Positions 19,778 to 41,704 of a DNA stretch of 44,641 nt are shown piece by piece. The notes below the pieces were generated by a model. That model worked only from the letters and a program-made list of their open reading frames with translations, was not told the DNA's origin and did not search any database. Every line of letters starts with the position of its first letter. Position 1 is the stretch's first letter. The translations under genes and the position numbers were made by a program. The stretch comes from Deltaproteobacteria bacterium (GTDB lineage: Bacteria; Desulfobacterota; WTBG01; CAIYCZ01; CAIRTM01), in NCBI GenBank assembly GCA_024276465.1, contig JAJRXD010000143.1, positions 1 through 44,641 on the forward strand. Direction: 5' to 3'.

Positions 19778-20155
19778 ATTAACCTCCTTCAAGTTTGTTG
19801 GATTTAAACTGTCGGTAAAATTTATGTAGCTCTGCACCTGAACTGAGCGGTTTTTAACATTGTTGGGGTCACAGTAATATCTTTTTGCTCATTCAATGCC
19901 ATTGCTGTGACAGCATTTTGTAAAAAGCATATGTTGTTAGTCGCACAATTCAGTTTACGGATAAATACTATTCAAAAAAAAATTATGTGTCAAACTATAA
20001 ATATACTTTTTTGTTTCAGGGAAATTTGACAGGGGATAAATTTAATGAAACAATAAAAGCACTAACTTTATTTTTTCTCTGTCCCATGTCTGGCAGAAAC
20101 TGTAATAATGATTTATCGTTCAGGCACTGTTTGTAATTTTTTTATGAGGTAAAAT
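19778..20155. other. Divergent intergenic region
   Basis: AT-rich spacer between divergent genes. It contains the palindrome TGCTGT-G-ACAGCA (19903-19915), which could be an operator, and on the plus strand TTGACA (20026-20031) with AACAAT 17 bases later (20049-20054), a fair promoter for the gene starting at 20156. Confidence 0.45.
20026..20054 (+). promoter_or_regulatory. Candidate promoter for the 20156 gene
   Basis: Perfect -35 TTGACA, a 17-base spacer and a weak AACAAT -10, about 100 bases upstream of the GTG start. Confidence 0.4.
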
Positions 20156-20542
20156 GTGGGGAAAAAGCAGAATTATGCGACAAAAAAAAATATTTTAAAA
20201 TCAATTCAGGCATTGGCCGGACTGGATCCTGAGGATTTTAAAAAAGGTGTTGTGGATTTGCTGGAACTGCTTTATGAGCAGGATGTCAGCATGACAAATA
20301 TAATGGCGGAAAAAGTGGATCAGCTTGAGGCGCGCCTGGATATGCTTAAAGGTGTTGTTCTTGGACTTCATATTGCGTCCTTACGCCATATAAAAGGGGA
20401 GGGGATCACCGGGGATGATTTAATGGGCTTAGCAGCCATGTATGAAATCGATTTATATAAGATCAAAGAATTTACAGATGAACAAAGTCAGGCAGAAGTT
20501 TTTAAAAATATAAAAAAATATTTTAATCTTCCAAAAAACTAA
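20156..20542 (+). CDS. Uncharacterised helical/coiled-coil protein
   Basis: 128 residues starting at GTG 20156, chosen because GAGGT lies at 20146-20150; the overlapping ATG at 20153 opens a different, short frame. Residues 20-75 are amphipathic helix (DPEDFKKGVVDLLELLYEQD, then MAEKVDQLEARLDMLKGVV), with no signal peptide or membrane segment. The layout is reminiscent of phasin-like or granule-associated helical proteins, but I recognise no family. It lies 185 bases before an SCP2-like gene and could belong to the same lipid-related group. Confidence 0.65.
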   Translation: MGKKQNYATKKNILKSIQALAGLDPEDFKKGVVDLLELLYEQDVSMTNIMAEKVDQLEARLDMLKGVVLGLHIASLRHIKGEGITGDDLMGLAAMYEIDLYKIKEFTDEQSQAEVFKNIKKYFNLPKN

Positions 20543-20727
20543 TTTTTTGGGACTGAAACCCGGGAACTGTTTTTTTGCTCCGGAGGGTATCGAGGGTATC
20601 GGCCAATGAGGTGTTGCAGACACAATCTGCTCAGGGGCAGTACCATTGATACGACACGCACCTTTTCAGGGTTTCGCCCTGCTTTGGCAATCTTCAGCAC
20701 AGCTTAAAAAAATCCTGTCAGGAAATC

Positions 20728-21132
20728 ATGAAAAAAACAACGGAATTTAACAGCCGGCTTGTCAGCAGATACTTTAAAAAATTCCTTCCGTCAGTGACGG
20801 GAAAGTCAATATTTGCAGAACTTGATAACCTTGATACGGTTTTGAGCTTCTATTTTACTGACAGTGAAGAAACATGGACTGTTTGTTTTGATAATGGCCG
20901 AATTGTGAATGTCCATAATGAGCTGTCATCCGGGAATGAGGTGTTGTTTGAGCTTGATACAGAAACATTTTTTCAGATAGTTTCGGGTCAACTGTCACCT
21001 CAGGAGTCGTTTTTCATGAGTCGCTCTAAAATACAGGGAGATACTCTTAAGGGCCTTAAGTTATCATCGATTTTTGAGAGGTTTATTAAGCAATACCCTT
21101 TTTCGATTCGCAACTCTGAGCCGCAGGAGTGA
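20728..21132 (+). CDS. SCP2 sterol-carrier-like lipid-binding protein
   Basis: A 134-residue single-domain protein with an SCP2-type pattern: an N-terminal helix, paired strands DTVLSFYFTDSEETWTVCFD and GRIVNVHNEL, then FELDTETFFQIVSGQLSPQE and an FFMSRSKIQGDTLKGLKLSS segment matching the G-D-...-L core of SCP2 domains. Such domains bind lipids or acyl-CoAs in the cytoplasm. It is 3 bases upstream of an alpha/beta hydrolase gene, which overlaps an MMPL transporter gene, suggesting one lipid-handling operon. The region 20543-20727 before it shows nothing recognisable. Confidence 0.75.
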   Translation: MKKTTEFNSRLVSRYFKKFLPSVTGKSIFAELDNLDTVLSFYFTDSEETWTVCFDNGRIVNVHNELSSGNEVLFELDTETFFQIVSGQLSPQESFFMSRSKIQGDTLKGLKLSSIFERFIKQYPFSIRNSEPQE

Positions 21133-21135
21133 AAT

Positions 21136-21849
21136 ATGGTTACTGAAGAAAATGTATTTTTCCATGCCGGTAAAGCTGTGATAGAGGGGGAACTGGCATA
21201 CGATGATGGTGTTTCAGGTGCCCCTGCTGTTGTTATTTGTCCTCCCCATCCTCAGTTGGGAGGGGATATGGGAAACAATGTTGTCAGTGCCATACATAAA
21301 TCTGCTGTCTCAAATAAGCTCGTCAGCCTGCGGTTTAATTACAGAGGTGTGGGCAGGAGCCAGGGAAATTACAGAGAACATTCAGACATAGAAGATGTAA
21401 AGTCCTTCTGGGAAGATTCCAGGAGCACTCTGGATGAGTTGAGAGTGCAGGATGTTTTTGCGGCAATTGATTTTTTAAAACGTATCAGTTCTGTTGAACA
21501 AGATTTTATTTTTATGGTGGGATATTCGTTCGGGGCTTACGCTGCCATGCAGGCAGCAGTCAGTGCCCCCCACTTAAGAGCCCTTGTCCTTATAGCGCCA
21601 ACCATCCACTTTCATGATTATTCACCACTTAACAAAAATTCTGTGCCCAAGATGGTAGTAAGCAGTGATAATGACTTTTCCTATTCCATGGAAGAGCTTG
21701 AGACTGCCTACAGCAGGTTCTCTTCTCCAAAATCACTTAAGCTTTTCAGAGGAGCAGATCATTTTTTTATCGGCTGTGAGGCGGAGGTGAGTTTATGTGT
21801 AACAGAATTTATAATAAAGCTGTGCGGTCAAGGGACTTTCAGTGAATAG
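21136..21849 (+). CDS. Alpha/beta hydrolase
   Basis: A 237-residue serine-hydrolase-fold protein. PPHPQLGGDMGNNVVSA forms the oxyanion region, RFNYRGVGRSQG follows, and the nucleophile elbow GYSFGAYAAM places Ser near residue 136. SSDNDFS supplies the probable Asp and GADHFF the His. It resembles the short-chain dienelactone-hydrolase/serine-aminopeptidase-like hydrolases of the CocE/YtfL-type clan. No signal peptide is present. Its stop overlaps the GTG start of the MMPL gene by 8 bases, indicating translational coupling. Confidence 0.85.
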   Translation: MVTEENVFFHAGKAVIEGELAYDDGVSGAPAVVICPPHPQLGGDMGNNVVSAIHKSAVSNKLVSLRFNYRGVGRSQGNYREHSDIEDVKSFWEDSRSTLDELRVQDVFAAIDFLKRISSVEQDFIFMVGYSFGAYAAMQAAVSAPHLRALVLIAPTIHFHDYSPLNKNSVPKMVVSSDNDFSYSMEELETAYSRFSSPKSLKLFRGADHFFIGCEAEVSLCVTEFIIKLCGQGTFSE

Positions 21850-24049
21850 ATTTATTGCCTGGATACTGTCTCACCCGAAGGGAAACATTGTCATAGTCTG
21901 TCTGTTTCTTCTTGTTTCGGCTTATTATGGCATGTCAGTAAGAATGGACAACAGCATGGAGGTCTGGCTTCCAGAGCATAGTCCGGCCATGATCCAATAT
22001 CAGAAATTCCTTAAGGATTTCGGCAGTGAGGAATTTATTCTCATAGCATTTTATATGCCTGAAGGATTGACCCGTGAGTATATCCTTATGACTCAAAGGC
22101 TGGCTCTTCTGCTTGAAAGGGAAAAGGGTGTTGCAAAGGCCTGGAGCCTGGACAGGAATTTTGACCGGCCTCTGAAAAATTTTGAACTATTCAAGGATGT
22201 AATTCTCAACTCGTCCTTTTGCCGCAGTATGTTGATTTCTAAAGATGGAAAGGTTTCAGCCATCATCCTTGTTCCATCCGTTGAAGGGGTGAGAAACCGT
22301 ATTGACCTGGTAGAAGCGGTAAAAAAACTGGTAGCAGATGAAGTTCCGCCTGACATAAAGGTGTTTATTGCAGGACCGCCGGTTATCAATGCAGAGCTTG
22401 ACCGGATGTCACAGGAGGTTTCGGCCATATACTCGCCCATGCTGTTTTTTGTCTGCCTTGTTCTTCTTCTGTTTTTTTTCAGGTCTATAACCGGCATTGC
22501 TGTGCCTGCTTTTATGATGGGCAGCTCCATGCTTATTACCATCGGATGGATGGGAATATTCAACGCTTCACTCAACATCATTACTGTCGCGTGTTTTCCC
22601 CTCATAATGGTCATATCGCTTGCCTATTCGATTTATGTTTACAGTGCATATCAAAACAGCCTGATTCAACAGGGGGACAGGGTCTCCAGCAGTTGTAAAC
22701 AGAGAGCCCTGTTGATTTCATACAGAACTGTTTTTTTGCCGGTTTTTTTAAGTGCTTTTACTACTGCTGCCGGGTTTGGATCATTGATGGTAAGCAACAT
22801 AACACCTGTCAGAAATCTGGGCCTTTTTGTCTCTCTTGGAATACTTTCCACCTTTTTCCTTGCCATGACATTTTTGCCCTCAATGTTTTTTCTGCTTCCT
22901 TCTCCTGCTTTTTCCGGCAATGGGGGGGGGGGAGATAAACTGCTTAATGGATTTATAAAATATGCAGGGATGTTTGCAATTCGCCGTCAAAAAACCACAC
23001 TCTTTTTTGCTTTTTTGTTGTTTGCCCTGTCTGTGTGCGGGATTTTGCGCCTGAGCGTTGAGACCCATATACTGAACTTTTTCAAGAAAAACAGTCCGAT
23101 TGTCCGGGCCTATAATTTTATCGAAGGCAGTCTGACAGGGCTTTCGCCCATAGAGATTGTGATAGAGTCCAAAAAAAAATTTTTTAAAAATGGAACATTT
23201 AAGCCGGAAACATTGAAGAAAATCAAAGAGCTTCAAAAATATTTAGAGCAGAAAAAAAATGTTTTAAGCACACACTCTGCAGCGAATATCATCAGTGACA
23301 GGACAAGAATAGGTTTCCTGGACATGCTTTTTGTTTCAAAGGAGCCGATGTTGTCAGGGCTTGATGCAGCATTAAAGGATTTTATTAATGAGAACAGCAC
23401 TGCAACCCGTGTTTCCGTAAGGGCAAAGACCCTTGCTTCGGAAAAATACAGCGCGCTTATACATGATATTGATCAGTACCTGGCAATACATTTCAGGGAC
23501 GAGCTTCGGGCTTATATAACAGGTGTTGTTCCGATTATTGTTAATATGCAGGACTGCCTGCTTAAAAATCTTATAAAGAGTTTTTGTATCGCCTTTGGGG
23601 TAATCTGTCTCGTTTTTTTTATTTTTCTGCGCTCAGTGAAAAACACGATTATAAGTATGATTCCCAATATAATGCCTGTAATTGCAATATTAGGATTTAT
23701 GGGGTTTTTTGGAATAAATCTGGATGTGGCAACAGTAATGATTGCCAGTATTGCCATGGGTATTGCTGTAGATGATACAATCCATTTCATCTTTCGATAT
23801 AAACGGGAAAAGACTGGTTCTTCAGATTTTGTTCAGCCGGTTTTGGCTACCTTAGAGGCAACCGGCAAACCCATTTTTCACACATCTCTGATCACCTTTT
23901 GCGGTTTTATTGTTCTGTGTTTCTCGGGGTTTAAGCCGATGATTTATTTCGGGCTTTTAACTGCTGTAACCGTATTTGCTGCACTTACAGGTGATATCAT
24001 TGTGCTTCCGGCGTTGCTCGTCAGGTTTAAGGTAAAATTTGACTGGTGA
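21842..24049 (+). CDS. MMPL/RND-superfamily transporter
   Basis: 735 residues from GTG 21842. Two homologous halves each have one transmembrane helix (about 10-30), a periplasmic loop, and a bundle of further helices. RND signatures include GWMGIFNASLNIITVACFPL in half one and GFFGINLDVATVMIASIAMG followed by AVDDTIHFIFRYKRE in half two. It is short for a drug pump and fits the two-repeat MMPL/HpnN group that exports hydrophobic or lipidic molecules. It is translationally coupled to the hydrolase, with SCP2 upstream. Oddity: 11 consecutive G at 22922-22932 (FSGNGGGGDK, about residue 360), a slippage-prone tract. No periplasmic adaptor or outer-membrane factor is adjacent. Confidence 0.9.
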   Translation: MNRFIAWILSHPKGNIVIVCLFLLVSAYYGMSVRMDNSMEVWLPEHSPAMIQYQKFLKDFGSEEFILIAFYMPEGLTREYILMTQRLALLLEREKGVAKAWSLDRNFDRPLKNFELFKDVILNSSFCRSMLISKDGKVSAIILVPSVEGVRNRIDLVEAVKKLVADEVPPDIKVFIAGPPVINAELDRMSQEVSAIYSPMLFFVCLVLLLFFFRSITGIAVPAFMMGSSMLITIGWMGIFNASLNIITVACFPLIMVISLAYSIYVYSAYQNSLIQQGDRVSSSCKQRALLISYRTVFLPVFLSAFTTAAGFGSLMVSNITPVRNLGLFVSLGILSTFFLAMTFLPSMFFLLPSPAFSGNGGGGDKLLNGFIKYAGMFAIRRQKTTLFFAFLLFALSVCGILRLSVETHILNFFKKNSPIVRAYNFIEGSLTGLSPIEIVIESKKKFFKNGTFKPETLKKIKELQKYLEQKKNVLSTHSAANIISDRTRIGFLDMLFVSKEPMLSGLDAALKDFINENSTATRVSVRAKTLASEKYSALIHDIDQYLAIHFRDELRAYITGVVPIIVNMQDCLLKNLIKSFCIAFGVICLVFFIFLRSVKNTIISMIPNIMPVIAILGFMGFFGINLDVATVMIASIAMGIAVDDTIHFIFRYKREKTGSSDFVQPVLATLEATGKPIFHTSLITFCGFIVLCFSGFKPMIYFGLLTAVTVFAALTGDIIVLPALLVRFKVKFDW

Positions 24050-24059
24050 TTTTTATGCG

Positions 24060-24230
24060 TTATAATTGATGAAACCGTAAAAAGTAAAAATTCGATGGCA
24101 AAGTAAAAAGCTTCAAATTCAAGGCGCGCAAATCCTCCAGGAATGAGGCGTACTTACTGTATCCCGGTTAATGTCGGGAAAGGATGCCGCGCAACGCCGA
24201 AGTTGGACTTTTTACGAAGCCATCATAATT
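24060..24230. mobile_element. MITE-like inverted-repeat element, about 170 bp
   Basis: The ends are related inverted repeats: the left end AATTGATG...CGTAAAAAGT (24066 region) and the right end ACTTTTTACGAAGCCATCA plus TAATT (to 24230). Inner arms around GGCGCGCAAATCCT and AGGATGCCGCGC also pair imperfectly, so the whole element can fold on itself. It has no ORF. Similar ends recur at 12510-12533, 33048-33067 and 43300-43320. It lies between the MMPL and ligase genes. I recall similar sequences in other Desulfobacterota intergenic regions, but could not search. Confidence 0.55.
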
Positions 24231-24289
24231 ATTGCAAATAACGAAGCAGAGTGAACAGGAATTTGTTCAGATAGAAAGTGAGAAGAACC

Positions 24290-25408
24290 ATGGATGCAGA
24301 ATGGTTTGGATCTCCTGTAGATGACTGGCTCAGGCATGTGCTTGAAATTCATTTTCATCCTGAAAGAGGCTCCCGGTACTGGATTGAAAGAGCCAGTGAA
24401 CTTGGTATTGCTGTTTTGTCCGATATTAAAGGGCTTGAAGATCTGACAGCCTTTGGACCCATGGACGAGCAGGCACTGGCTTGCCGGCCTGTTGAGGATT
24501 TTATCCCCAAATGTTTTTTTTCTGAAAAAAAACATTTTATACTTGGGGATACGGCCGGTACAACAGGCAACCCAAAGACAACCGCATACAGGGATGACGA
24601 ATTTTATTTGACCTTTGTAGAATATTTCGGCTATGTTGCAGAAGTGCTGAAATTTCCCAAAGGGGTAAACTGGCTGTGGATTGGACCGGGCGGTCCCCAT
24701 ATTATAGGGAAAGCAGCAAGAATGCTGCCCCCGAGGATGGGCAGCATGGATGCGTTTTCAGTGGACTTTGATCCCAGGTGGATCAAGAAAATGGTACCAG
24801 GGTCCCTGGGATGGGAGCGGTATTTTCAGCATATAGAGGATCAGGGACTTCATATTCTGAATACCCAGGAGATCGGTGTGATTTTTTCAACGCCCCCTGT
24901 TATTGAGCGTTTTGCACGGAAGATGGGAACAGGGCTAAGACACGGGATAAAAGGGGTACATTATGGCGGCTTGTCTCTTGACCCGGGACTGTATAAAACC
25001 CTCAAATCTGAACTTTATCCCAATGCTGTTCATATTGCAGGATATGGAAATACATTATTCGGTGTATGCCTGGAAGTTGAGCCTGATCAACAGGGAAGCC
25101 TCAAATACTTTTCTCCTGGTCCCCGCCTTATATTAAGGATTGTTCCCATGGGCAATCCTGATGAGGATGAAAAAACACAACACAAAAGGCTTGAACAGGT
25201 GGTTCAGTATGAAGAGCGGGGGCAGGTGGTTTTTCACCGCCTTGATGAAAGCTTTCTGATTCTTAACATGTTTGAACGCGACTGCGCCGGAAGAATCCCG
25301 CCAAGTAAGGCTGCCATGGGGCTTGGCTTGAATCTGGATGGAATTTCAGATCCGGCTCCCCCTTTGGATTTCCAGAAAGGCAGGGAAATCCCCCAGGGGC
25401 TTTATTAA
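24290..25408 (+). CDS. Adenylate-forming acyl ligase-like protein (LuxE/PaaK type)
   Basis: 372 residues from ATG 24290 (a GTG at 24278 is a less likely start; neither has a strong ribosome binding site). The AMP-binding P-loop is clear: LGDTAGTTGNPKTT near residue 89. It is followed by WLWIGPGGPHIIG and a second core motif around GIKGVHYGGLSLDPGLYK and HIAGYGNTLFG. It lacks the large C-terminal lid of normal AMP-CoA ligases and matches the size of LuxE acyl-protein synthetases and short PaaK relatives. It may activate a fatty or aromatic acid. It follows the SCP2/hydrolase/MMPL group across the MITE-like element. There is no signal peptide. Confidence 0.75.
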   Translation: MDAEWFGSPVDDWLRHVLEIHFHPERGSRYWIERASELGIAVLSDIKGLEDLTAFGPMDEQALACRPVEDFIPKCFFSEKKHFILGDTAGTTGNPKTTAYRDDEFYLTFVEYFGYVAEVLKFPKGVNWLWIGPGGPHIIGKAARMLPPRMGSMDAFSVDFDPRWIKKMVPGSLGWERYFQHIEDQGLHILNTQEIGVIFSTPPVIERFARKMGTGLRHGIKGVHYGGLSLDPGLYKTLKSELYPNAVHIAGYGNTLFGVCLEVEPDQQGSLKYFSPGPRLILRIVPMGNPDEDEKTQHKRLEQVVQYEERGQVVFHRLDESFLILNMFERDCAGRIPPSKAAMGLGLNLDGISDPAPPLDFQKGREIPQGLY

Positions 25409-25720
25409 GTCTGCCCTGATCCAGGCACAGAGGGGCAGAGTTCACAGAGGCAGTTGTGTTGGCTGTCATTGATTCCCAGATATTCATCGGGATCTGGGAC
25501 TGACTGTTATGTCTTGGGGGTTGCGAGTTAAGAAGATATTTCAACATGCAATTAGTGACATTTGGCTAACAAAAGATGATATGAAAAAATACTATCACTT
25601 TTAATATAAAAAGTCTTGACAACAATAAAACAGGCGCAAAGTGTTATAAGAAAATTTGCTGGCAGGGGTATTGTCTGCTGGTACACTAATTTTAATATTT
25701 TCAGGGAGGAAAGCCAATTT
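25409..25720. other. 312-base intergenic region before the cytochrome gene
   Basis: Contains one perfect 8-bp hairpin, TCCCAGAT/ATCTGGGA (25474-25499), without a T tract. A TTGACA at 25616-25621 has its nearest TTATAA 22 bases away, too far for a standard promoter. No gene is seen; GGGAGGA just before 25721 serves the cytochrome gene. Confidence 0.5.
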
Positions 25721-26530
25721 ATGAAAAGAAACATTCTGGTACCAGTAAACACATTAATAATTACGGCAATTTTTTTATCTCCTGTTTTGTTTTCTGGCGA
25801 TACAGCAGTGTTTTCACAGGAGATAGATGAATGTCTTGAGTGCCACATGGACAGGAATCTGACCAAGGCTGATGATTCAGGGAAAGTTCACAGTCTGTAT
25901 GTGGCTAAGGATGCGTTTATGCGTTCTGTTCATGTTGAGTCGGAATACACCTGTGTTGAATGCCATGAAGGTGTGAAAGCCGACAACCATCCCGAGGGGG
26001 GTATCCCTGACGTAAAGTGCGGTGCATGCCATGAAGAAGTGCTTGAAAAATTTAAAAAAAGCAATCACGGCAAGTTGTTAGACTCTGGTGAACCTGAGGC
26101 ACCCCGGTGTTTTGACTGCCACAGCAAGCATGAAGTTTTGCATCCTGATAATCCGGATTCTGCCATTAACCCTGAGAATCAGATAAAAACCTGTGGAAAA
26201 TGCCACGAAAAAGAGACCAGGGGAACTATCCTTGCGCTTATTGCAACCCAGTTTAAAAACAGTGGGAAGGATAGTATGGTACATGACTTTAGTACAAAGC
26301 GATGTACCTACTGCCACTTTGAAGTGGGTCAGCATGGGAATGATGAGCTTATACCAAAGAACTGTATTAAATGCCATGGCTCGGAAAAATTCTCAGCAAT
26401 TTTTGGTAAGGTTCACAAAACAAGCATTTTTCAGAGCCCCTTTCTGGATATTATTCTGATCTGTTTTGTTCTGGCCGGGTTTTTACTTGTTTTCTTTTGC
26501 AGGAAAATATTTATGAAAAAGGGGAAGTGA
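25721..26530 (+). CDS. Membrane-anchored heptaheme c-type cytochrome
   Basis: 269 residues from ATG 25721, chosen because GGGAGGA precedes it and the next residues form a signal peptide (MKRNILVPVNTLIITAIFLS, then a likely cut near residue 31). Seven CxxCH heme sites follow: CLECH (38-42), CVECH, CGACH, CFDCH, CGKCH, CTYCH and CIKCH. Extra His residues (for example in the SNHGK and DCHSKHE segments) could be distal ligands. A C-terminal transmembrane helix (ILICFVLAGFLLVFF) and a basic tail anchor it with the hemes in the periplasm. It probably carries electrons between the quinone pool or a membrane complex and periplasmic acceptors. It stands upstream of a U32 gene but the two need not be functionally linked. 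Confidence 0.9.
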   Translation: MKRNILVPVNTLIITAIFLSPVLFSGDTAVFSQEIDECLECHMDRNLTKADDSGKVHSLYVAKDAFMRSVHVESEYTCVECHEGVKADNHPEGGIPDVKCGACHEEVLEKFKKSNHGKLLDSGEPEAPRCFDCHSKHEVLHPDNPDSAINPENQIKTCGKCHEKETRGTILALIATQFKNSGKDSMVHDFSTKRCTYCHFEVGQHGNDELIPKNCIKCHGSEKFSAIFGKVHKTSIFQSPFLDIILICFVLAGFLLVFFCRKIFMKKGK

Positions 26531-29986: not shown

Positions 29987-30661
29987 ATGAAAATTTTCAA
30001 CTTGAAACGCTATATATGTTTTTCTCTCTTTTTTGCAGCCTGCTTTCAGAATGCATCTGCTGGTTCTGAACCAATCCAAACAGGTGATAAGATAACCCGC
30101 GGTTTTTCCTCAGCATCTGAATGGCGGTTTGTGCTTGACCAGGGGAAAAGCAGAATCTCCTTCCTGCTGAAGGGAAATACGCATGATACAAAAGGCTCTG
30201 TAACAAAAATGCAGTGCAGTATATCAATGCTTGTATCTCCTGACGGGTTGTTTTCCGTACCGGATGTTCAAATAGTAATAAATCCGGATGATATTGACAC
30301 AAAAAATGGTATTAGAAATCGCAGGATGAAGAAAACATTTCTTGAGATTGATAAATTTCCTGAAATTATTTTTCGTGCTACTGAAATAAAGAAAAAACAG
30401 GGTCAGCCAGAAGTTTATGCAAATTTAAAAGCAACAACCCCTTTCCCCTTTGATTTAGGCGGAGAGCTTACTCTTCACGGAAAAACAAAAAAAATATCAT
30501 TAAAAATCAATGCCAGCTTTTTAGACGACAGGCTTATTGCTGATGGTGAAACAACGCTGGACCTGAGAGATTTTGCCATAAAGAATCCATCACTGCTGTT
30601 TTTTCGAGTAGCCAATGAAGTTTTAATTCAGTTTCATGTTGAGGCTGTTAGGAACTTTTAA
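29987..30661 (+). CDS. YceI-family periplasmic protein
   Basis: 224 residues with a signal peptide (CFSLFFAACFQNASAGSEP, cut near residue 25) and a YceI-type lipocalin-like beta barrel: FVLDQGKSRISFLLKG, then DPDDIDTKNGIRNRRMKKTF-like spacing ending FLEIDKFPEIIFRATE, then FDLGGELTLHGKTKKISL. The ending reads VANEVLIQFHVEAV. YceI proteins bind isoprenoid lipids in the periplasm, which fits a neighbourhood rich in prenyl and lipid functions, though this is only suggestive. No strong ribosome binding site is present, so it is probably coupled to the aminotransferase gene. Confidence 0.85.
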   Translation: MKIFNLKRYICFSLFFAACFQNASAGSEPIQTGDKITRGFSSASEWRFVLDQGKSRISFLLKGNTHDTKGSVTKMQCSISMLVSPDGLFSVPDVQIVINPDDIDTKNGIRNRRMKKTFLEIDKFPEIIFRATEIKKKQGQPEVYANLKATTPFPFDLGGELTLHGKTKKISLKINASFLDDRLIADGETTLDLRDFAIKNPSLLFFRVANEVLIQFHVEAVRNF

Positions 30662-30695: not shown

Positions 30696-30724
30696 TTGAC
30701 ATATAATATTTTTCTTTCTATTAT
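30696..30724 (+). promoter_or_regulatory. Sigma-70 promoter for the redoxin-cytochrome gene
   Basis: TTGACA (30696-30701), an exact 17-base AT-rich spacer and TATTAT (30719-30724). This is the clearest promoter in the window, about 55 bases from the start codon at 30784. Confidence 0.7.
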
Positions 30725-30783: not shown

Positions 30784-32706
30784 ATGACTAAAAAAAACAG
30801 AGTTGCACTGAAATTTGTGATTGTTTTCTACTTGATGGTGCTCCTTGTATCACCTGTTCCTTATATTGCGGGATCTGGTGGTGAGCTAACTTTCAGCCCC
30901 GGTGTTAACAGTCCTTCCTCCATGAAGTTTGACATTAAAAAGTACAATGGGAAGAAACTTGTGCTCTTTTTTTATTCTCTCAACGAACAGCATCTTAATG
31001 AAGCAGTTGACATGATAAAATATTTCTACAAGATCCGGAATGAATACAACTTTAATGTTGCAGGCCTTTCTCTTAATCCTGACTTGGAACAGGAAGTTAT
31101 GAGTTTTAATCAGGACAACAACATCTCCTTTCCTGTTTTTTTTGACCATAACCATGAATTTGCCTCAAGGCATAAAGTCAAGGGCAAAACCGGGTTTTTT
31201 ATTTATAACAAAAAAGGTAAAAGAATAGGGGGGGCTTTAACGTCCAGAAGCCTTAATATTTCGCATGCCTGGCGCGCCATTGCAAGCAGATATTTGAAAA
31301 TCGGCTACATACCTGAAGACGCGCCGGTTTTGGGGATAAAGCCTCCTGTGCCTGTTTTCGAGGGTAAGGCTCTAAACGGTGAAACAATAAAGATTAAAGA
31401 AATTTTTAAAAAAAAACCTGTTATAATTACAATTTTTTCTCCCAAGTGCAAAAATTGCAGAAATGAACTGGGCTTTTTGAACAGCCTTTACAGCTCTGGT
31501 GATCTTAAAGGCAAGTTTGAAATAGTGGCACTAAGTATTCTGAATGAAAAGGTTACCAGTCAGTTTGTAAAAGAAAAAAAATATCTGTTTCCTGTAATTG
31601 TCAGCAATGGAAAAAAAATTGCTTCTCTTTTCCCTTCTTACACAGGCCCGGTCCCCACCAGCTTTGTTGTTGACCGCGATGGACGTATCAATGCCATACA
31701 CACAGGGTTTAATCCCTATCTGAAAGACATATATGTAATGGAACTCAAAAAGCTGGCCGGGCTGCCCAATCCCCCGCTTTTGTTTAATGTGGGGTATTCC
31801 GGTGAACAACGCTGTGGGATTTGTCATGAAAAGGAGCATATCCAGTGGAGTCTGACAAGGCATTCAGATGCTTTCAAATCCCTTGTCAGGAAGGGAAAAG
31901 AGGATGACTTGAAATGTGTGCCATGCCATGTTACAGGTTTCGGGAGGAAAGGCGGATACAGTCTGAAAATTTCAAATAAACGGGCAAGGTACCTGAAAGG
32001 AATACAGTGCGAGGCATGTCATGGGGCTGGAAATGAATCATGTTCAGCCTTTAATAAAGACAAACCCGTTAAAAAAACAGCAGAAGACTGGGAGAATTTT
32101 TGCCGTCATTGCCATACCCAAAAACAGTCCCTTAACTTTGTTTTTGCCAAACGTTTCCCAAAGGTTGTTCATTCCAATGCGCCTGACCTTTCAGCAATGA
32201 ACCGTGAAGAACGCTTGAAATTTGTCAGAAAGTACCGGGAGAAACAGAATGTTTTTGATAATACGGCCAGGTACGTTGGTGCCGAAGCCTGCAAAGAGTG
32301 TCACAGGCAGGAGTATGACCACTGGAAAAAAACCGCGCATGCCGGTGTTCATAAAACCAGCAGGGCAGGGTCAGTGTCGCCTGAGACTGAGTTTCGTTAT
32401 AATACCGGCGTTAACAGTGCCGGAGGCTATCCCGAGCCGGGGCGTGAGGGTGTTCAGTGTGAAGCCTGCCACGGACCTGGAGAAAGGCACATAAACAAGC
32501 CAGAGGCAAAGGGTCAGGATTATATCGTCAGTCTGGGGTCAACATGCTCTAACTGTGTGGTTGAACAGATATGCCGCCGCTGTCATTCACCAAGCGACGA
32601 CCCGGATTTTGATTTTGACAGGCAGATAGAAAAAGTACGGCATAATATCAAATTGCATTCCGGTGAGGATCGGGCAAAGGAAGTATCGATTGATAAGAAG
32701 CCATAA
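30784..32706 (+). CDS. Double thioredoxin-fold / heptaheme c-type cytochrome fusion
   Basis: A 640-residue exported protein. A signal peptide or anchor (about 8-30) precedes two thioredoxin-like (AhpC/TlpA) domains. The first (about 35-175) has no Cys at the active-site position (LFFYSLNEQH); the second (about 182-325) has SPKCKNCRNELG with CKNC at 222-225. The C-terminal half carries seven CxxCH hemes: CGICH (344), CVPCH, CEACH, CRHCH, CKECH, CEACH and CRRCH. The pattern of four hemes then three suggests a duplicated c554-like tetraheme module whose second copy lost one heme. It is probably a periplasmic redox protein linking thiol/disulfide chemistry to heme electron transfer. A well-formed promoter precedes it. 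Confidence 0.88.
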   Translation: MTKKNRVALKFVIVFYLMVLLVSPVPYIAGSGGELTFSPGVNSPSSMKFDIKKYNGKKLVLFFYSLNEQHLNEAVDMIKYFYKIRNEYNFNVAGLSLNPDLEQEVMSFNQDNNISFPVFFDHNHEFASRHKVKGKTGFFIYNKKGKRIGGALTSRSLNISHAWRAIASRYLKIGYIPEDAPVLGIKPPVPVFEGKALNGETIKIKEIFKKKPVIITIFSPKCKNCRNELGFLNSLYSSGDLKGKFEIVALSILNEKVTSQFVKEKKYLFPVIVSNGKKIASLFPSYTGPVPTSFVVDRDGRINAIHTGFNPYLKDIYVMELKKLAGLPNPPLLFNVGYSGEQRCGICHEKEHIQWSLTRHSDAFKSLVRKGKEDDLKCVPCHVTGFGRKGGYSLKISNKRARYLKGIQCEACHGAGNESCSAFNKDKPVKKTAEDWENFCRHCHTQKQSLNFVFAKRFPKVVHSNAPDLSAMNREERLKFVRKYREKQNVFDNTARYVGAEACKECHRQEYDHWKKTAHAGVHKTSRAGSVSPETEFRYNTGVNSAGGYPEPGREGVQCEACHGPGERHINKPEAKGQDYIVSLGSTCSNCVVEQICRRCHSPSDDPDFDFDRQIEKVRHNIKLHSGEDRAKEVSIDKKP

Positions 32707-35050: not shown

Positions 35051-37402
35051 TTGAAAAAATTTGCTGAAAATTTAATTAAGTACCGTAGAATAGCCCTGGT
35101 AATAATTGCTGTAATTACAGCCTTTTTTCTCTATGCTTTAAAAGACCTTTCTGTTGAAACCCGTTTTTCTGAACTCATACCCCAGAAACATCCTTTCATA
35201 AAAGTTCATAATAAAATTCGTAATATTTTCGGTGGAGCTAATCAGGTGCTCATCATGGTCCAGGTGCGAAAGGGGGATATATTTAATAAAAAGACCCTGG
35301 AAAAGGTGAAATGGATCACCCGCGAACTGGAAAAAATTCCCGGAGTTGATCCATACAAGATAAGGTCTATCGCTGTGTCAAAAATGAAGGACTTTAAATT
35401 TAAAGCAGGCACCATGTTCATCAGCCCGCTCATGTTTCCTGATGTACCCAAGGATGAAAAGGAGATGGAGGAACTGCGTGATAAAATTTACAGTAACCCA
35501 CGGTATTACGGGGGTTATGTATCCTATGACAGCAAAAAAACCCTTATAATGGTGGATTTTTTTGAAGACAATATTAACTATACAGATGTGTTCAATGCGC
35601 TCAGCAGTATAAGGAAGCATACCGAGGACGAGAATCACATAATAAATATAGCCGGAGAGCCAATGCACCTTGGCTATATCGAAAATCTTATGACGCAGGT
35701 TTTGCTGGTGTTAGGCCTGACCATTGTTGGAATTATTGTGGTTCTGTATTTTTATTACAGAAGCAGGAGGGCAGTGCTTATTCCTGTTGTTACGGCTGCA
35801 ATGAGTGCTGTCTGGGGACTTGGTTTCATGTCCCTGATGGGTTTTAACCTTGATCCGCTGATCCTTGTTCTGCCGTTTCTCATCGCTCTTATGACAGCGC
35901 GTCATTCCATGCAGTGTATAAGCCGTTATCTCGAAGAGTATGCTGTAACAAGAGATATAAAAAAGACAGCAGTGACTACCATTGAAAACATGCTGCTGCC
36001 GGGAATTACCAGTATTATTACTGATGCCATTGGTATTGCACTTGTTTCCATAGCAACAATCCCCGTACTTACTAATATTGCCATAACATGCAGTTTCTGG
36101 TGCGTTGCAACGGTAATCCTCTCGGTCATGCTTACCCCCCTTATCCTTTCATGCCTTCCGGAATCGGAGCGGATGATAAAGTATATGGAAAAAAGTCTGA
36201 GCCAGGGCGACAGGGACTTCAGGGCAAGATTCCTCGGTATGATCGGCAGATGGATACCGAGACGCGGCAAATGGTATGTTGCAGTGATAACGGCTGTTAT
36301 TGTTGTTGTCGGCTGGGATTATGCGGAAAAGATAGAGATAGGGGATTTTATGCCAGGCTCTTCAATCCTGTGGCCTGATCACAGGTACAACAAGGATGCC
36401 TTCAGAATAACATTCAGCATGCCTCTGCTCAACCCTCTTTATGTGATTTTAGAGGGAGAAAAGGGTGGTGATTTTGCCACATCAGGCCCCTCGCTTCGAG
36501 CAATGAACAAGTTTCAGCGATACATAACCAAACACCCGAAGGTGTTTTTTGCAAATTCCATTGCAAGCACTCTTCCGGGTTTTCTGATGGCATCCTATGA
36601 AGATGACCCCCAATGGAATCACCTCCCGAAAACAGACAGGGTGCTGAGCTTTATTGCGAGAAAGTTAGTGTATACCGGTGAACCCGGAACCTGGGACAGG
36701 TATGTTGACCTGCAGGATAAGTATGCAAATGTTGTGATATTCTGCAGTGATAAAATGCCAAAAACGGTTGAGAGTCTGATAGGGGACATTAAGGAATATA
36801 TAGCGAACAACCCTGCTCCGCCCGGGGGCAAGTGGCTGCTGGCCGGAGGTGTTGTAGGGGTTCAGGCCGGGGTGCGTGAAATAATAGCCGAGGCCCAGAT
36901 ATGGAACCTTATTTTTGCATTAGGCGGAATTTTTCTGTTCTGTGCTATTAACTTCAGATCTCTGCTGGCAGGTTTAATTCTTACCATACCGCTTGCTGTC
37001 TCAAATGTTATTACATTTGCCCTGATGGGCGCGTATCAGATAGGGCTTACTGTCAACACCTATCCTGTAGCATCTGTGGGCATAGGTCTTGGAGTTGATT
37101 ATGGAATTTATTTTATCAGCCGCCTTGTGGAAGAACGAAAAACAGGTGCGGACCTGAGTGAGGCTATTTACCAGACCCTGCTGACAAATGGAAAGGCAAT
37201 TATCCAGATAGCCACCACCCTTACTATCGGGCTGCTTATCTGGCTGTTTTCAGCGCTTAAGTTTCAGGCGGAAATGGGGGCTTTATTAGCCATCCTGCTG
37301 TTTCTTAATATGTTGGGCGCGCTGTTTCTTGTTCCAACATTAGTTTGTATTCTTAAACCGAAATTTATAACAGAGATTTCTGTTGATAAAAAGAATGCAT
37401 GA
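35051..37402 (+). CDS. RND-superfamily (MMPL-type) exporter
   Basis: 783 residues from a TTG at 35051 with GGGAG upstream. Two homologous halves contain an N-terminal helix (IALVIIAVITAFFLYAL), a periplasmic loop with RFSELIPQKHPFIKVH, and membrane bundles. The first bundle includes GFMSLMGFNLDPLILVLPFL and RHSMQCISRYLEEY. The second includes YPVASVGIGLGVDYGIYFI and SRLVEERKTGADLSEA. It is the form usually found next to DUF1302 and DUF1329 genes, as here. No adaptor or TolC-like gene is adjacent. It probably moves a hydrophobic substrate through the inner membrane, using the proton gradient. Confidence 0.9.
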   Translation: MKKFAENLIKYRRIALVIIAVITAFFLYALKDLSVETRFSELIPQKHPFIKVHNKIRNIFGGANQVLIMVQVRKGDIFNKKTLEKVKWITRELEKIPGVDPYKIRSIAVSKMKDFKFKAGTMFISPLMFPDVPKDEKEMEELRDKIYSNPRYYGGYVSYDSKKTLIMVDFFEDNINYTDVFNALSSIRKHTEDENHIINIAGEPMHLGYIENLMTQVLLVLGLTIVGIIVVLYFYYRSRRAVLIPVVTAAMSAVWGLGFMSLMGFNLDPLILVLPFLIALMTARHSMQCISRYLEEYAVTRDIKKTAVTTIENMLLPGITSIITDAIGIALVSIATIPVLTNIAITCSFWCVATVILSVMLTPLILSCLPESERMIKYMEKSLSQGDRDFRARFLGMIGRWIPRRGKWYVAVITAVIVVVGWDYAEKIEIGDFMPGSSILWPDHRYNKDAFRITFSMPLLNPLYVILEGEKGGDFATSGPSLRAMNKFQRYITKHPKVFFANSIASTLPGFLMASYEDDPQWNHLPKTDRVLSFIARKLVYTGEPGTWDRYVDLQDKYANVVIFCSDKMPKTVESLIGDIKEYIANNPAPPGGKWLLAGGVVGVQAGVREIIAEAQIWNLIFALGGIFLFCAINFRSLLAGLILTIPLAVSNVITFALMGAYQIGLTVNTYPVASVGIGLGVDYGIYFISRLVEERKTGADLSEAIYQTLLTNGKAIIQIATTLTIGLLIWLFSALKFQAEMGALLAILLFLNMLGALFLVPTLVCILKPKFITEISVDKKNA

Positions 37403-37490
37403 ACGACACATGCTTTTGTCAGGCCTGTTTTGATGGAGGGCAGAAACCGGGTGTCTAAAAACATAATATTTGGGGGAGGAGAGGCTTATA

Positions 37491-39119
37491 ATGCATAAAA
37501 AAAGAGGTTTGTCTTTTATAGCAGCCGTGTTCTTTTTTCTTATTCCGGTATTATTAATGACAACAGAGCAGAGCCATGGGGCCATATACTTTTTTGAGAA
37601 TAAGTTGAGGGTGAAGGGCAGTCTGTATGAATTTGCCATGTACCAGACAAAGATAAAACCTGAGGATAAGAAATTTTCGGACACCAGGTTCGGGCTTATG
37701 AAGGCAAAGGCAACCCTTGAGCTTCTTTATAAGGCAGTGGAAAACGACACGCTTGAGGTAAATCTTTTCGGGTTTTTCCGCTGGTGGCATGACTCTGTTA
37801 TGGATTTTGACGATCAGAGACATGACAGTGTGAGCCGAAGGAACCGGCATTTTTACCAGGGGCCTTATTATGACCAGGATGACTGGATAAATGAACTGTA
37901 TGTGGATATATACAGGGGGCCATGGAACATCCGTCTTGGCAAGCAGATAGTGTTCTGGAGCGAGGTGGAGATGGTGCGAACCATAGACAGGATAAACCCA
38001 CTTGACCTCAGATACACAACACCCGGAATAGATCCCTGGGATGAGATGAAGATAGGCCTCTGGATGATGAGAGGGTTTTACAACTCAGACCTTCCGGGCC
38101 AGCTTGTATTTGAATGGATATGGATACCTGGTGATTTTGAAGGCGTTAGAACACCGAGGGAGGGGACCCCCATGGGAAGTGGTCCTGCCCCGCCTGATCC
38201 CAAAGATCCAAACAGGCCTTTTGGTCAGGGTGGAGCAGTGAACGCAATGTGGCGTTCGTCCCAGCCAGCCTTTAATATGCGAAATTCCTCTTTTGCATTC
38301 AGGCTGCGCGGAAATTCCGAGGTAGAGCTTTTAGGAGAGTTTTTGAACCTTGACTGGACAGTGAGCTGGTATCACGGGATGAATCAAACCCCTGTTCCCA
38401 ACAGGGAAAATATAGGGAAGCCTTCTTTTTCAAACATTAACACAAGTACGATAAACGGGTATTTGAACAATCTGGCTGTAAGCCGTCTAACCAGCAGCCC
38501 CACACCTAATCATCCGCGAGGAGCATGGGAGTATAAATTTTTTGATGCCATAGGTGTGAGCTGCCAGAGCTTTATCCCTCCGATTAAGGGGGTTTTGCGC
38601 GGCGAGATATCCTATGAGATAGGGGTTCCCCAGATAACTGCATTTTCCGACCGTATTGATCCCAGCCCATCATTTGCAAAACTCATGGTCGGCACAACAG
38701 AAAGGGACCAGGTGAACATTGGTATCACATATGATGTTCCCATAATGTATGACTGGCTTCAGGGTCTGTGGGGATCGGGAGGTGTGGTTGACACCTCAAT
38801 AGGTTTTTTCCTGCAGGAGAGGCTTGGGAACGTAAGCAGGATTCGAAGCACTTTTGCCTACCAGGACCGTTCACAGACAAACTTCACTCTGATGATGCGC
38901 TGGCATTTTTGGAATAATGAGCTGACTCAGGTACTTCGTACCCTTTATAACACCGCAAACTTTGGTTATGTGGCAATGACAGTGAACTGGACCCCAGGCT
39001 ATCACATGAGGTATGAGACAGGTTACATGTACTTTTATGCCAAAGATCCCTGGGACTTCAATCAGGCAAATGCAGAGAATAAAGATTTTATATATCTTAA
39101 AATAGGATATGAATTTTAG
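37491..39119 (+). CDS. DUF1302 family outer-membrane-type protein
   Basis: 542 residues from ATG 37491, chosen because GGAGGA lies at 37475-37480 and a signal peptide follows (LSFIAAVFFFLIPVLLMT, cut after SHGA). The mature protein shows the DUF1302 core: KQIVFWSEVEMVRTIDRINP, LDLRYTTPGIDPWDE, and QLVFEWIWIPGDFEG. It has many amphipathic strands and ends IYLKIGYEF with a terminal Phe, the usual outer-membrane barrel signature. DUF1302 proteins are repeatedly found with DUF1329 and RND transporters in lipid- and hydrocarbon-degrading bacteria. It follows the RND gene and precedes DUF1329 by 51 bases. Confidence 0.88.
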   Translation: MHKKRGLSFIAAVFFFLIPVLLMTTEQSHGAIYFFENKLRVKGSLYEFAMYQTKIKPEDKKFSDTRFGLMKAKATLELLYKAVENDTLEVNLFGFFRWWHDSVMDFDDQRHDSVSRRNRHFYQGPYYDQDDWINELYVDIYRGPWNIRLGKQIVFWSEVEMVRTIDRINPLDLRYTTPGIDPWDEMKIGLWMMRGFYNSDLPGQLVFEWIWIPGDFEGVRTPREGTPMGSGPAPPDPKDPNRPFGQGGAVNAMWRSSQPAFNMRNSSFAFRLRGNSEVELLGEFLNLDWTVSWYHGMNQTPVPNRENIGKPSFSNINTSTINGYLNNLAVSRLTSSPTPNHPRGAWEYKFFDAIGVSCQSFIPPIKGVLRGEISYEIGVPQITAFSDRIDPSPSFAKLMVGTTERDQVNIGITYDVPIMYDWLQGLWGSGGVVDTSIGFFLQERLGNVSRIRSTFAYQDRSQTNFTLMMRWHFWNNELTQVLRTLYNTANFGYVAMTVNWTPGYHMRYETGYMYFYAKDPWDFNQANAENKDFIYLKIGYEF

Positions 39120-39170
39120 ATGACATTTCTTTATGGGGACAATTTCAAACTGTTAAAAAAGGAGGATGGG

Positions 39171-40436
39171 ATGAAACGAGTATATACAGTAATTTTATCT
39201 GCTTTAGTGATATTAACATTCAGTTTTGATGCAGTTTTTGCAGCAGGGATAAAATTTCCGGTGCCAAGCTATGAGGGACAAGAGCTTGCCAAACTCAGGC
39301 AGTGGGAAAAGACATGGGCAGGAAAAAAGATAACAAAAGAAAATATAGATCAGATCAAGGAATTTCTGCATGAGGGAGTGTACATTGCCATGACCCAGCC
39401 TGAAAAGTTCGGAGCAGAAACAATCTGGTGTGAGGTTGTTCCGTACAGGCAATACCCGACTTCAAAAGGAAAAATTGCTGCAACAATGAAGTATGCACCT
39501 ACAAGCAAGCTTGAAGAAAACGGAATGATAGCAGGGTACGGCCAGGTTGCCGGTATTCCTTTTCCGCAGCCCAAAACAGGGCTTGAAATGGCATGGAATT
39601 TTGACGGCAATACCAGAGGAGATGCATCAAGAGAAAAGCAGTGGGGGAATGTTATTGACTGCAGAAGCAGAAACGAGCGTGAAACAATCCAATACAGATG
39701 GGAGCTGTACTGGATCGGCAGGTACGATGTGGAGCCAATACCGGCTTTTTCCAAGAAAAAAAACCCGCGGGGAATTGCCCGGTCGTTTTTTCAGCGGCAT
39801 GCAGCACCTGCAGACTTTGTTGATACCACAATGATTGAGATAAAGTATATAAATCCCAAAAGGCTGGAAGACCTGTGGGTCTATACAGCCATGTTCAGGC
39901 GGATCAGACGCTATGCATCGACCCAGAGATCAGACACCATTGACGGAACAGACATGATATATGATGACCATGACGGATGGTACACATCCATTATTCATAA
40001 CACCTACAGCGCAAAGGGCAGGGCAGATCTTCTCGTTGCAAGGCACCAGGACAGGGACAAGCTTGAGAGGATAAAGGGGCAGGGGTTCTGGAGCGGTGTG
40101 CAGAGGGAACGGGTCAACCACTGGGTGGTTGAAGTTAAAAACAAGAACAAGAATTATGTTTACAGCAAACAGATATGGTATTTAGACCCTGAGACATGGC
40201 AGATGAATTTCAAGACAATGTATAACAGGCAGGGAGAGTTCTGGAAGATGTATGAGATGTTTTACAGCGTATATCCCTCAGCTGGCAACCAGAAGACACC
40301 ATCATACAACTCTGAGCACATCATGGACTACATCCGGTCTCACGGCAGCGACAGCAAGCGTGAGATGCTGGAGCTTGGTGCTGAAATACGAACTGATCTG
40401 TTTCAGGTAAAGAGTCTTAAGCAGAAGAGCTATTAA
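39171..40436 (+). CDS. DUF1329 family exported protein
   Basis: 421 residues from ATG 39171, chosen over an upstream ATG at 39120 because GGAGG lies at 39161-39165 and a signal peptide begins at once (MKRVYTVILSALVILTFSFD, cut after VFA). The DUF1329 core is visible in ALGSTENP-type spacing and in WVYTAMFRRIRRYASTQR and DGTDMIYDDHDGWYT (about 245-290), followed by YFY/W-rich strands. The fold has been compared with LolB/LolA-like lipid carriers. It is probably periplasmic and works with DUF1302 and the RND transporter. It is 51 bases after DUF1302. Confidence 0.88.
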   Translation: MKRVYTVILSALVILTFSFDAVFAAGIKFPVPSYEGQELAKLRQWEKTWAGKKITKENIDQIKEFLHEGVYIAMTQPEKFGAETIWCEVVPYRQYPTSKGKIAATMKYAPTSKLEENGMIAGYGQVAGIPFPQPKTGLEMAWNFDGNTRGDASREKQWGNVIDCRSRNERETIQYRWELYWIGRYDVEPIPAFSKKKNPRGIARSFFQRHAAPADFVDTTMIEIKYINPKRLEDLWVYTAMFRRIRRYASTQRSDTIDGTDMIYDDHDGWYTSIIHNTYSAKGRADLLVARHQDRDKLERIKGQGFWSGVQRERVNHWVVEVKNKNKNYVYSKQIWYLDPETWQMNFKTMYNRQGEFWKMYEMFYSVYPSAGNQKTPSYNSEHIMDYIRSHGSDSKREMLELGAEIRTDLFQVKSLKQKSY

Positions 40437-40648: not shown

Positions 40649-41704
40649 ATGATAAAGAAATTTCCCAGATGCCTTGTTTTTTCAGGCCTTGTTCTTGTGA
40701 TGGTTGCGGGGTGCGGCAAGTTTGACCAGTCCTCCATAAAGATGCCAAAATTCAAGTTTGTTACCACGGAAAACCTTCACAGTTTAGCATGCGCTGATTC
40801 CGGAGACATATGGGCAAGTGGAAACTACGGGACAATTATTCACAGCTCTGATAGAGGAAAAAAATGGAAGAAACAGAAGACAGGGGTTGAAGAGTTGTTA
40901 TGCTGTATTGAGTTTGCCAGTAAGAACAAGGGGTGGGCAGCAGGAGTAAGAGGCGTGATTATTCATACTTCTGACGGAGGCAAAACATGGACTGCTCAGC
41001 AAAGCGGAACGGAAAACAACTTCATGGATCTTTTTTTTCTTGATGACCGGCATGGCTGGGCTGTTGGAGAATTCGGCACTGTTATCCATACGGACAATGG
41101 AGGCAAAACATGGACTGCCCAGATGGAAGCGCAGGATACGATTTATAATGATGTGTTTTTTGTGGACACCCAAACCGGGTGGATTGTTGGAGAATTCGGC
41201 ACTATTCTTCATACGGGTGATGGTGGAAAAACATGGCAGCCCCAGAAGTGTCAGGATATTGTCCCTGTTATAAAAGAGACAGATTGGGCAATACCTCTTC
41301 CCGCACTGTATGGAATATTTTTCAAGGACAAAAACAAAGGATGGATTGTGGGAATGGAAGGTATTATTATTGAGACGGAAGATGGGGGAAAGACCTGGTC
41401 CAGGGTAGACTCCGGCACGGATAAACCACTGTATAACATCAAATTCAGGGGGTCAAAAGCATGGGTAGTGGGGAACAAGGGAGTCTATTTGATGAGTGAT
41501 GACAACGGGAAGACCTGGACCGTAAAGGATAAGGCAATTAAAACAAAATTCTGGTTGCGGGATGTTTTGTTCTGTGATGATAAAAACGGAGTAATTGTAG
41601 GAGCAAGGGGTACCATTGCCCGGTCAGGTGACGGGGGGGCTACCTGGCAGCTTATTTCCGGTTTCAGTTATGATATGGAGGAGTTTGGTCTGGCTGATTT
41701 TTAA
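40649..41704 (+). CDS. YCF48/BNR beta-propeller lipoprotein
   Basis: 351 residues with a lipoprotein signal: basic N-terminus, LVLVMVAGC with Cys22, so it should be lipid-anchored. Seven Asp-box-like repeats follow, each ending D-GKTW or a close variant (HSSDRGKKW, HTSDGGKTW, HTDNGGKTW, HTGDGGKTW, ETEDGGKTW, MSDDNGKTW, RSGDGGATW), giving a seven-bladed propeller. The fold is that of YCF48/HCF136, and bacterial members commonly accompany DUF1302/DUF1329/RND loci. GGAG (40637) precedes the ATG. It probably assembles or stabilises the envelope complex. Confidence 0.9.
   Translation: MIKKFPRCLVFSGLVLVMVAGCGKFDQSSIKMPKFKFVTTENLHSLACADSGDIWASGNYGTIIHSSDRGKKWKKQKTGVEELLCCIEFASKNKGWAAGVRGVIIHTSDGGKTWTAQQSGTENNFMDLFFLDDRHGWAVGEFGTVIHTDNGGKTWTAQMEAQDTIYNDVFFVDTQTGWIVGEFGTILHTGDGGKTWQPQKCQDIVPVIKETDWAIPLPALYGIFFKDKNKGWIVGMEGIIIETEDGGKTWSRVDSGTDKPLYNIKFRGSKAWVVGNKGVYLMSDDNGKTWTVKDKAIKTKFWLRDVLFCDDKNGVIVGARGTIARSGDGGATWQLISGFSYDMEEFGLADF

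Follow-up and report, generated by a model that had tools for sequence, protein, structure and literature searches.

A double redoxin-heptaheme cytochrome c fusion conserved in two families of Desulfobacterota, a putative thiol-disulfide oxidoreductase of the periplasm

The stretch of DNA analysed here (the window, 44,641 nucleotides) belongs to contig C116 of a 4.1-Mb deltaproteobacterial draft genome and contains a single open reading frame that spans exactly positions 30784-32706 of the forward strand and codes for a protein of 640 amino acids. Pfam AhpC-TSA matches this protein in two stretches with an E-value of 1.7e-24, far beyond chance, and Pfam Cytochrome_C554 (PF13435) likewise in two stretches (E 1.4e-18; 68 bits, cut-off 20.8). 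Seven CXXCH motifs start at residues 344, 378, 409, 440, 503, 559, and 597. One frame with Pfam matches in both halves bears out the initial annotation of the gene as two thioredoxin folds joined to seven c-type hemes. The features are as follows:

30696..30724, + strand: candidate sigma-70-like promoter TTGACA-N17-TATTAT (11 of 12 matches to the consensus; consensus only)
30784..32706, + strand: double redoxin-heptaheme cytochrome c fusion, whole gene (open reading frame and Pfam; conserved in 16 genes of 15 genomes)
30784..30873, + strand: predicted N-terminal signal peptide, residues 1 to about 30 (judged by eye from a basic start and a hydrophobic stretch; no lipobox)
30925..31299, + strand: redoxin domain 1, about residues 48-172, without active-site cysteine (NCBIfam PRK09437, stretch 48-139, E 2.8e-5)
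31336..31758, + strand: redoxin domain 2, ResA/TlpA-like, residues 185-325 (AhpC-TSA 188-304)
31447..31458, + strand: active site CKNC, C222 and C225 (invariant pair, 16 of 16 homologues)
31792..32193, + strand: c554-type module 1 with four CXXCH (PF13435, residues 344-414)
31813..31827, + strand: heme 1, CGICH (CXXCH motif)
31915..31929, + strand: heme 2, CVPCH (CXXCH motif)
32008..32022, + strand: heme 3, CEACH (CXXCH motif)
32041..32043, + strand: C420, adjoining the place of a lost distal histidine, position 419 (invariant in the host's family)
32101..32115, + strand: heme 4, CRHCH (CXXCH motif)
32269..32658, + strand: c554-type module 2 with three CXXCH (BLASTP between the two modules, E 1e-9 for one comparison)
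32290..32304, + strand: heme 5, CKECH (CXXCH motif)
32395..32400, + strand: remnant of a lost heme site, R538-Y539, corresponding to the second C and the H of CxxCH in the second family (alignment)
32458..32472, + strand: heme 6, CEACH (CXXCH motif)
32545..32556, + strand: non-heme CxxC (CSNC, C588 and C591), immediately N-terminal to heme 7 (no substitution of either cysteine in the 15 complete homologues)
32572..32586, + strand: heme 7, CRRCH (CXXCH motif)

Attachment of heme c requires export. The fusion protein looks to be exported to the periplasm, and its CXXCH motifs and signal-like N-terminus are the signs of a putative covalent attachment of heme.

The candidate promoter is located within the 122-bp intergenic gap 5' of the gene. 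It had been described as the best promoter in the window; it is a good intergenic site, but it ties with another 11/12 site at 14952, which is intragenic and has a 16-nt spacer (the scan covered the window except bases 20001-24999, and consensus matches are no proof of a promoter). The neighbours of the fusion gene are a YceI-family gene (29987-30661) and small genes. The YceI gene was not seen beside other homologues, and shared neighbours were found only between pairs of the same genus; between genera, the only recurring neighbours are response-regulator-type matches, whose position varies. An operon partner was sought and rejected, as no adjacent gene is kept across genera, and no dedicated partner gene is evident. 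The fusion gene thus appears to form a unit by itself, its protein relying on general partners in the periplasm.

The window also contains, about 5 kb upstream, a gene for a multiheme c-type cytochrome that has seven CXXCH and whose C-terminal segment is hydrophobic (25616-26530, +). A run of genes at 35051-40436 (+) codes for an RND/MMPL-like transporter and for two further proteins, both exported, that by eye resemble a DUF1302/DUF1329 pair, and is followed by a repeat protein of YCF48 look (40649-41704). A 1497-aa exported repeat protein of beta-helix look, encoded at 12656-17149 (+), ends in a calcium-binding/dockerin-like C-terminus. In one genome of the second family, the fusion gene is followed by more multiheme cytochrome genes with 4 and 10 CXXCH (L034:10809-14443); such further cytochrome genes were not seen beside other homologues.

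Near-full-length homologues are present in all nine genomes of the host's family, covering seven genera (one copy, in L016, is cut by a contig end), and in six of the seven genomes that represent a second family of the phylum, where identity is about 32%. A search of 395 genomes sampled across the phylum (E 1e-30) gave matches only in these two families, so that the same architecture, for which the initial annotation had suggested searching other Desulfobacterota, is indeed found there. Beyond the phylum, the analysis covered a scan of genome contigs with six short peptides, which returned two close relatives, the MAGs PL23b_bin.63 and Zod_Metabat.1117. Plasmids gave no match to the fusion, and no published description of it was found in open-access full texts. 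An in-frame TGA of the L015 homologue was considered as a selenocysteine codon and rejected; it is a real stop at the C-terminus.

Joining of two genes by an assembly error or by chance read-through can occur: the frame of the homologue at L013:1495-4056 is continuous with that of a DedA/TVP38-like membrane protein upstream, by a real fusion or the loss of a stop, and totals 853 aa. For the fusion itself, such an origin has practically no probability left, as it is refuted by conservation, the order of the domains being identical in 16 genes from 15 genomes, and by purifying selection on both halves (dN/dS 0.10-0.29). Because the halves are fused in every gene found, in two families, and both are under selection, neither of the outcomes named as refuting the initial annotation, halves that are always separate or an assembly join, was observed.

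As initially annotated, the first redoxin domain lacks the active-site cysteines, and the second carries CKNC at residues 222-225. None of the 16 homologues has a cysteine at the active-site position of domain 1. In the second family, domains 1 and 2 are similar to each other (BLASTP E 2e-9; this value, like that for modules 1 and 2, applies to one single-subject comparison). An AlphaFold2 model of the whole protein, built from three sequences and informative for the redoxins only, gave pLDDT values of about 70-88 for both redoxins (domain 1, about 75) and of about 30 for the heme half. A model of domain 1 by itself was weaker (pLDDT 56), and the fold matches in the PDB obtained from this weak model were Bcp/peroxiredoxin and ResA. 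Domain 2 is ResA/TlpA-like, a thioredoxin fold with N-terminal CxxC; its closest solved chain is ResA (4nmu, E 2.5e-13), and ResA/TlpA were the best Foldseek matches for the best part of the model (4nmu, TM to target 0.82). A proline placed by alignment opposite the CxxC, the cis-proline P291, is invariant in 16 of 16 homologues. The dipeptide typical of the reductive ResA/TlpA/CcmG enzymes, CxPC, is absent; the homologues have CxHC or CxNC, and CPHC in the second family. Despite this CPHC, the DSBA profile with its helical insertion was not among the Pfam matches.

AhpC-TSA is the best-scoring Pfam name for the redoxin part, and the initial annotation had included peroxide chemistry among the possible reactions. 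A peroxidase in which peroxiredoxin-like domains reduce peroxide with electrons from the hemes is nevertheless very improbable. The peroxidatic-cysteine motif P-x-x-x-T/S-x-x-C is absent from both redoxins in the 16 homologues, domain 1 having no peroxidatic cysteine and domain 2 a thioredoxin-type CxxC throughout, and the best solved relatives are ResA/TlpA; this part of the annotation was therefore dropped.

In the heme half, PF13435 is matched in all 16 homologues, and the solved chain nearest to module 1 is cytochrome c554 of Nitrosomonas (1bvb, E 2.1e-8). The view of this half as a duplicated tetraheme module that lost one heme agrees with the similarity between modules 1 and 2 and with the second family, in which all six proteins keep eight CXXCH, four per module; a ninth CXXCH-like match in L019, CPHCH, is the active site of its redoxin. 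In module 2, 10 of 10 genes of the host's family have lost the second heme site, the first C being deleted, the second C replaced by R, and the H by Y or F (this count includes L016, whose sequence ends just past the site). In a tree of single modules, modules 1 of both families group together, as do modules 2, with moderate support. The grouping by module suggests that the duplication probably predates the split of the two families, and that the heme was lost later, in the host's family.

Two further features of this half are absent from the initial annotation. One is the non-heme CxxC, followed closely by heme 7 (CSNCVVEQICRRCH), whose cysteines C588 and C591 are kept without exception in the 15 complete homologues from the two families. 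The insertion is absent from the other c554 modules compared, and a degenerate DNA search of the 395 genomes of the phylum for CxxCV[V/I]xQICxxCH matched only the fusion genes. The other feature concerns the distal-type histidine of the 'CHGPGxxH' motif. Second-family proteins have it, as do module 2 and the relatives included in the comparison, but module 1 of the host's family carries S or A in its place (position 419), and the adjoining C420 is invariant (10/10), whereas the second family keeps the histidine and has no C420. C420 is a candidate heme ligand, but H352, which is also invariant only within the host's family, could supply the ligand instead.

Relatives of the heme module were collected with residues 185-459 as query at a cut-off of E 1e-14. 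This query matches 72 of 395 genomes, and outside the two families the heme part alone aligns. Most of the relatives that were read are UshA-like and carry a single tetraheme module, the others being short tetraheme cytochromes and a few further multiheme proteins on the same loci. In all 15 UshA-like relatives checked for it (L058, L060, L064, L074, L075, L077-L085, and L087), the open frame starts right after CG-TGA, which is the selenocysteine position of the UshA-like family NF041198; other relatives have CGC at this position. NF041198 is listed as a selenoprotein family (PMC13188914), and its selenocysteine versions appear to be common in the phylum. Compared with NF041198, the heme part of the fusion alone aligns (154.7 bits, cut-off 275), which leaves the fusion outside the UshA-like family. 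Single redoxin-c554 fusions elsewhere in the phylum were considered and rejected: the candidates with longer alignments that were read turned out to be either UshA-like (seleno)proteins or short cytochromes. In the host genome, L002:587-2182 codes for a third architecture of the same heme module, a UshA-like part and a tetraheme module followed by C-terminal calcium-binding/dockerin-like repeats of the type also seen in the 1497-aa protein of the window. One c554-type heme module is thus paired with two different thiol or selenol heads, a redoxin and a UshA-like CGC/CGU head, which is the main reason for reading the fusion as thiol chemistry combined with a wire.

The UshA superfamily also includes SoxB. 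The fusion of relatives of the module to UshA-like heads, and the invariance of C420 beside the lost distal histidine in the host's family, could fit a dissimilatory sulfur enzyme whose thiol head oxidises or reduces persulfide, polysulfide, or thiosulfate with the hemes, C420 tuning or ligating a heme of module 1. We regard such a function as improbable, because C420 is missing from the second family, in which the histidine is kept, and because the neighbourhood, not being conserved, offers no linked sulfur genes.

The function which we propose, with about an even chance of being correct, is that of a soluble periplasmic thiol-disulfide oxidoreductase with a built-in heme wire, exchanging electrons with the pool of c-type cytochromes. 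Domain 2, with its ResA/TlpA fold and C222/C225, would carry out dithiol-disulfide exchange with a client; electrons would move between C222/C225 and the hemes of the two c554-type modules, which in turn would exchange them with other periplasmic cytochromes. Lying six residues ahead of heme 7, C588/C591 would likely act as a two-electron/one-electron relay, and domain 1, without catalytic cysteines, probably serves in client binding or packing. With a pLDDT of about 30 for the heme half, the putative relay is placed by adjacency in the sequence.

As to direction, there is a slight lean towards thiol oxidation, with electrons leaving via the hemes. CxHC, CxNC, and CPHC are closer to the dipeptides of oxidising or isomerising thiol enzymes, and the lean comes from the dipeptide being CxHC or CxNC and never CxPC, which is a weak argument. 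Retained as the best reading, then, is the coupling of thiol-disulfide chemistry to periplasmic electron transfer that had been suggested initially, the two halves being fused in 16 of 16 genes; the emphasis on disulfide reduction is not, since the dipeptide leans the other way, if at all. VKOR is absent from all nine genomes of the host's family and DsbB is present in one, so that eight of the nine lack both. The absence of VKOR and DsbB was rejected as proof of an oxidase role: across the phylum, VKOR matches 66 of 395 genomes (35 over the cut-off) and is thus absent from most of it, and G174 has both the fusion and VKOR. A CcdA/DsbD-type protein, which normally supplies ResA/TlpA domains with reducing equivalents, occurs in nine of nine genomes of the host's family, and a place for the redoxin in a reductive path is thus conceivable. 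The rarity of VKOR, its presence in G174, and the CcdA/DsbD-type proteins together leave only a slight preference for thiol oxidation.

The reductive version, in which electrons would pass from the cytochrome network via the hemes and C588/C591 to CKNC and reduce client disulfides, for repair or to keep the cysteines of apocytochromes reduced, is a possibility to which we give limited credence. It would suit the ResA/TlpA-like domain 2 and the many c-type cytochromes of these genomes (11 c554-type matches in the host), which create a demand for reduced heme-site cysteines, but the active site is never CxPC, and the host genome already has a CcdA-TlpA-type pair. Somewhat less probable again is the specific form of a quinone-independent thiol oxidase, in which CxHC/CxNC would oxidise client thiols, the CxxC would relay the electrons to heme, and C420 would give a module-1 heme His/Cys ligation in the host's family.

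Among known systems, ResA/TlpA/CcmG (PDB 4nmu, 1st9, 1jfu) share with domain 2 the thioredoxin fold, the CxxC, the cis-proline, and the periplasmic type; the fusion differs by CKNC/CxHC/CPHC in place of CxPC, and by a cysteine-less redoxin in front and hemes behind, where those proteins have a membrane anchor. With cytochrome c554 of Nitrosomonas europaea (PF13435), module 1 shares the tetraheme layout and the conserved W..T.H and CESCHG, whereas the fusion has tandem modules, one heme less in module 2, the non-heme CxxC, and a replaced distal histidine in module 1; against the CycA equivalog it reaches 56 bits (cut-off 400). The UshA-like (seleno)proteins of NF041198, to which the heme half is most closely related, carry the same tetraheme module behind a thiol/selenol head (CGC/CGU), the fusion having redoxin heads instead of the UshA domain, and two modules. 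MccSep, a multiheme cytochrome c selenoprotein (PDB 9wt8), likewise combines hemes with a selenol, but its match to residues 492-529 is not significant (E 0.38), and the redoxins are not matched. Redoxin and heme c in one chain are known from single-heme cytochromes c fused to SCO or redoxin domains; these have one heme in an ordinary cytochrome c fold, in contrast to the c554-type multiheme wire of the present fusion.

Periplasmic thiol-disulfide chemistry is normally powered via membrane proteins, namely DsbB, VKOR, or DsbD/CcdA. The fusion points to a possible direct connection between the cytochrome network and sulfur-bond chemistry outside the cell membrane, and, by combining a thioredoxin-type CxxC and a multiheme wire in one chain, with a second CxxC by a heme, it makes direct coupling of heme to disulfide testable. 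The occurrence of one c554 module with at least two thiol/selenol heads helps to assign functions to many orphan multiheme cytochromes. If the fusion does act as a thiol oxidase, it would provide anaerobes with disulfide formation, or with a thiol-based respiration, without DsbB or VKOR.
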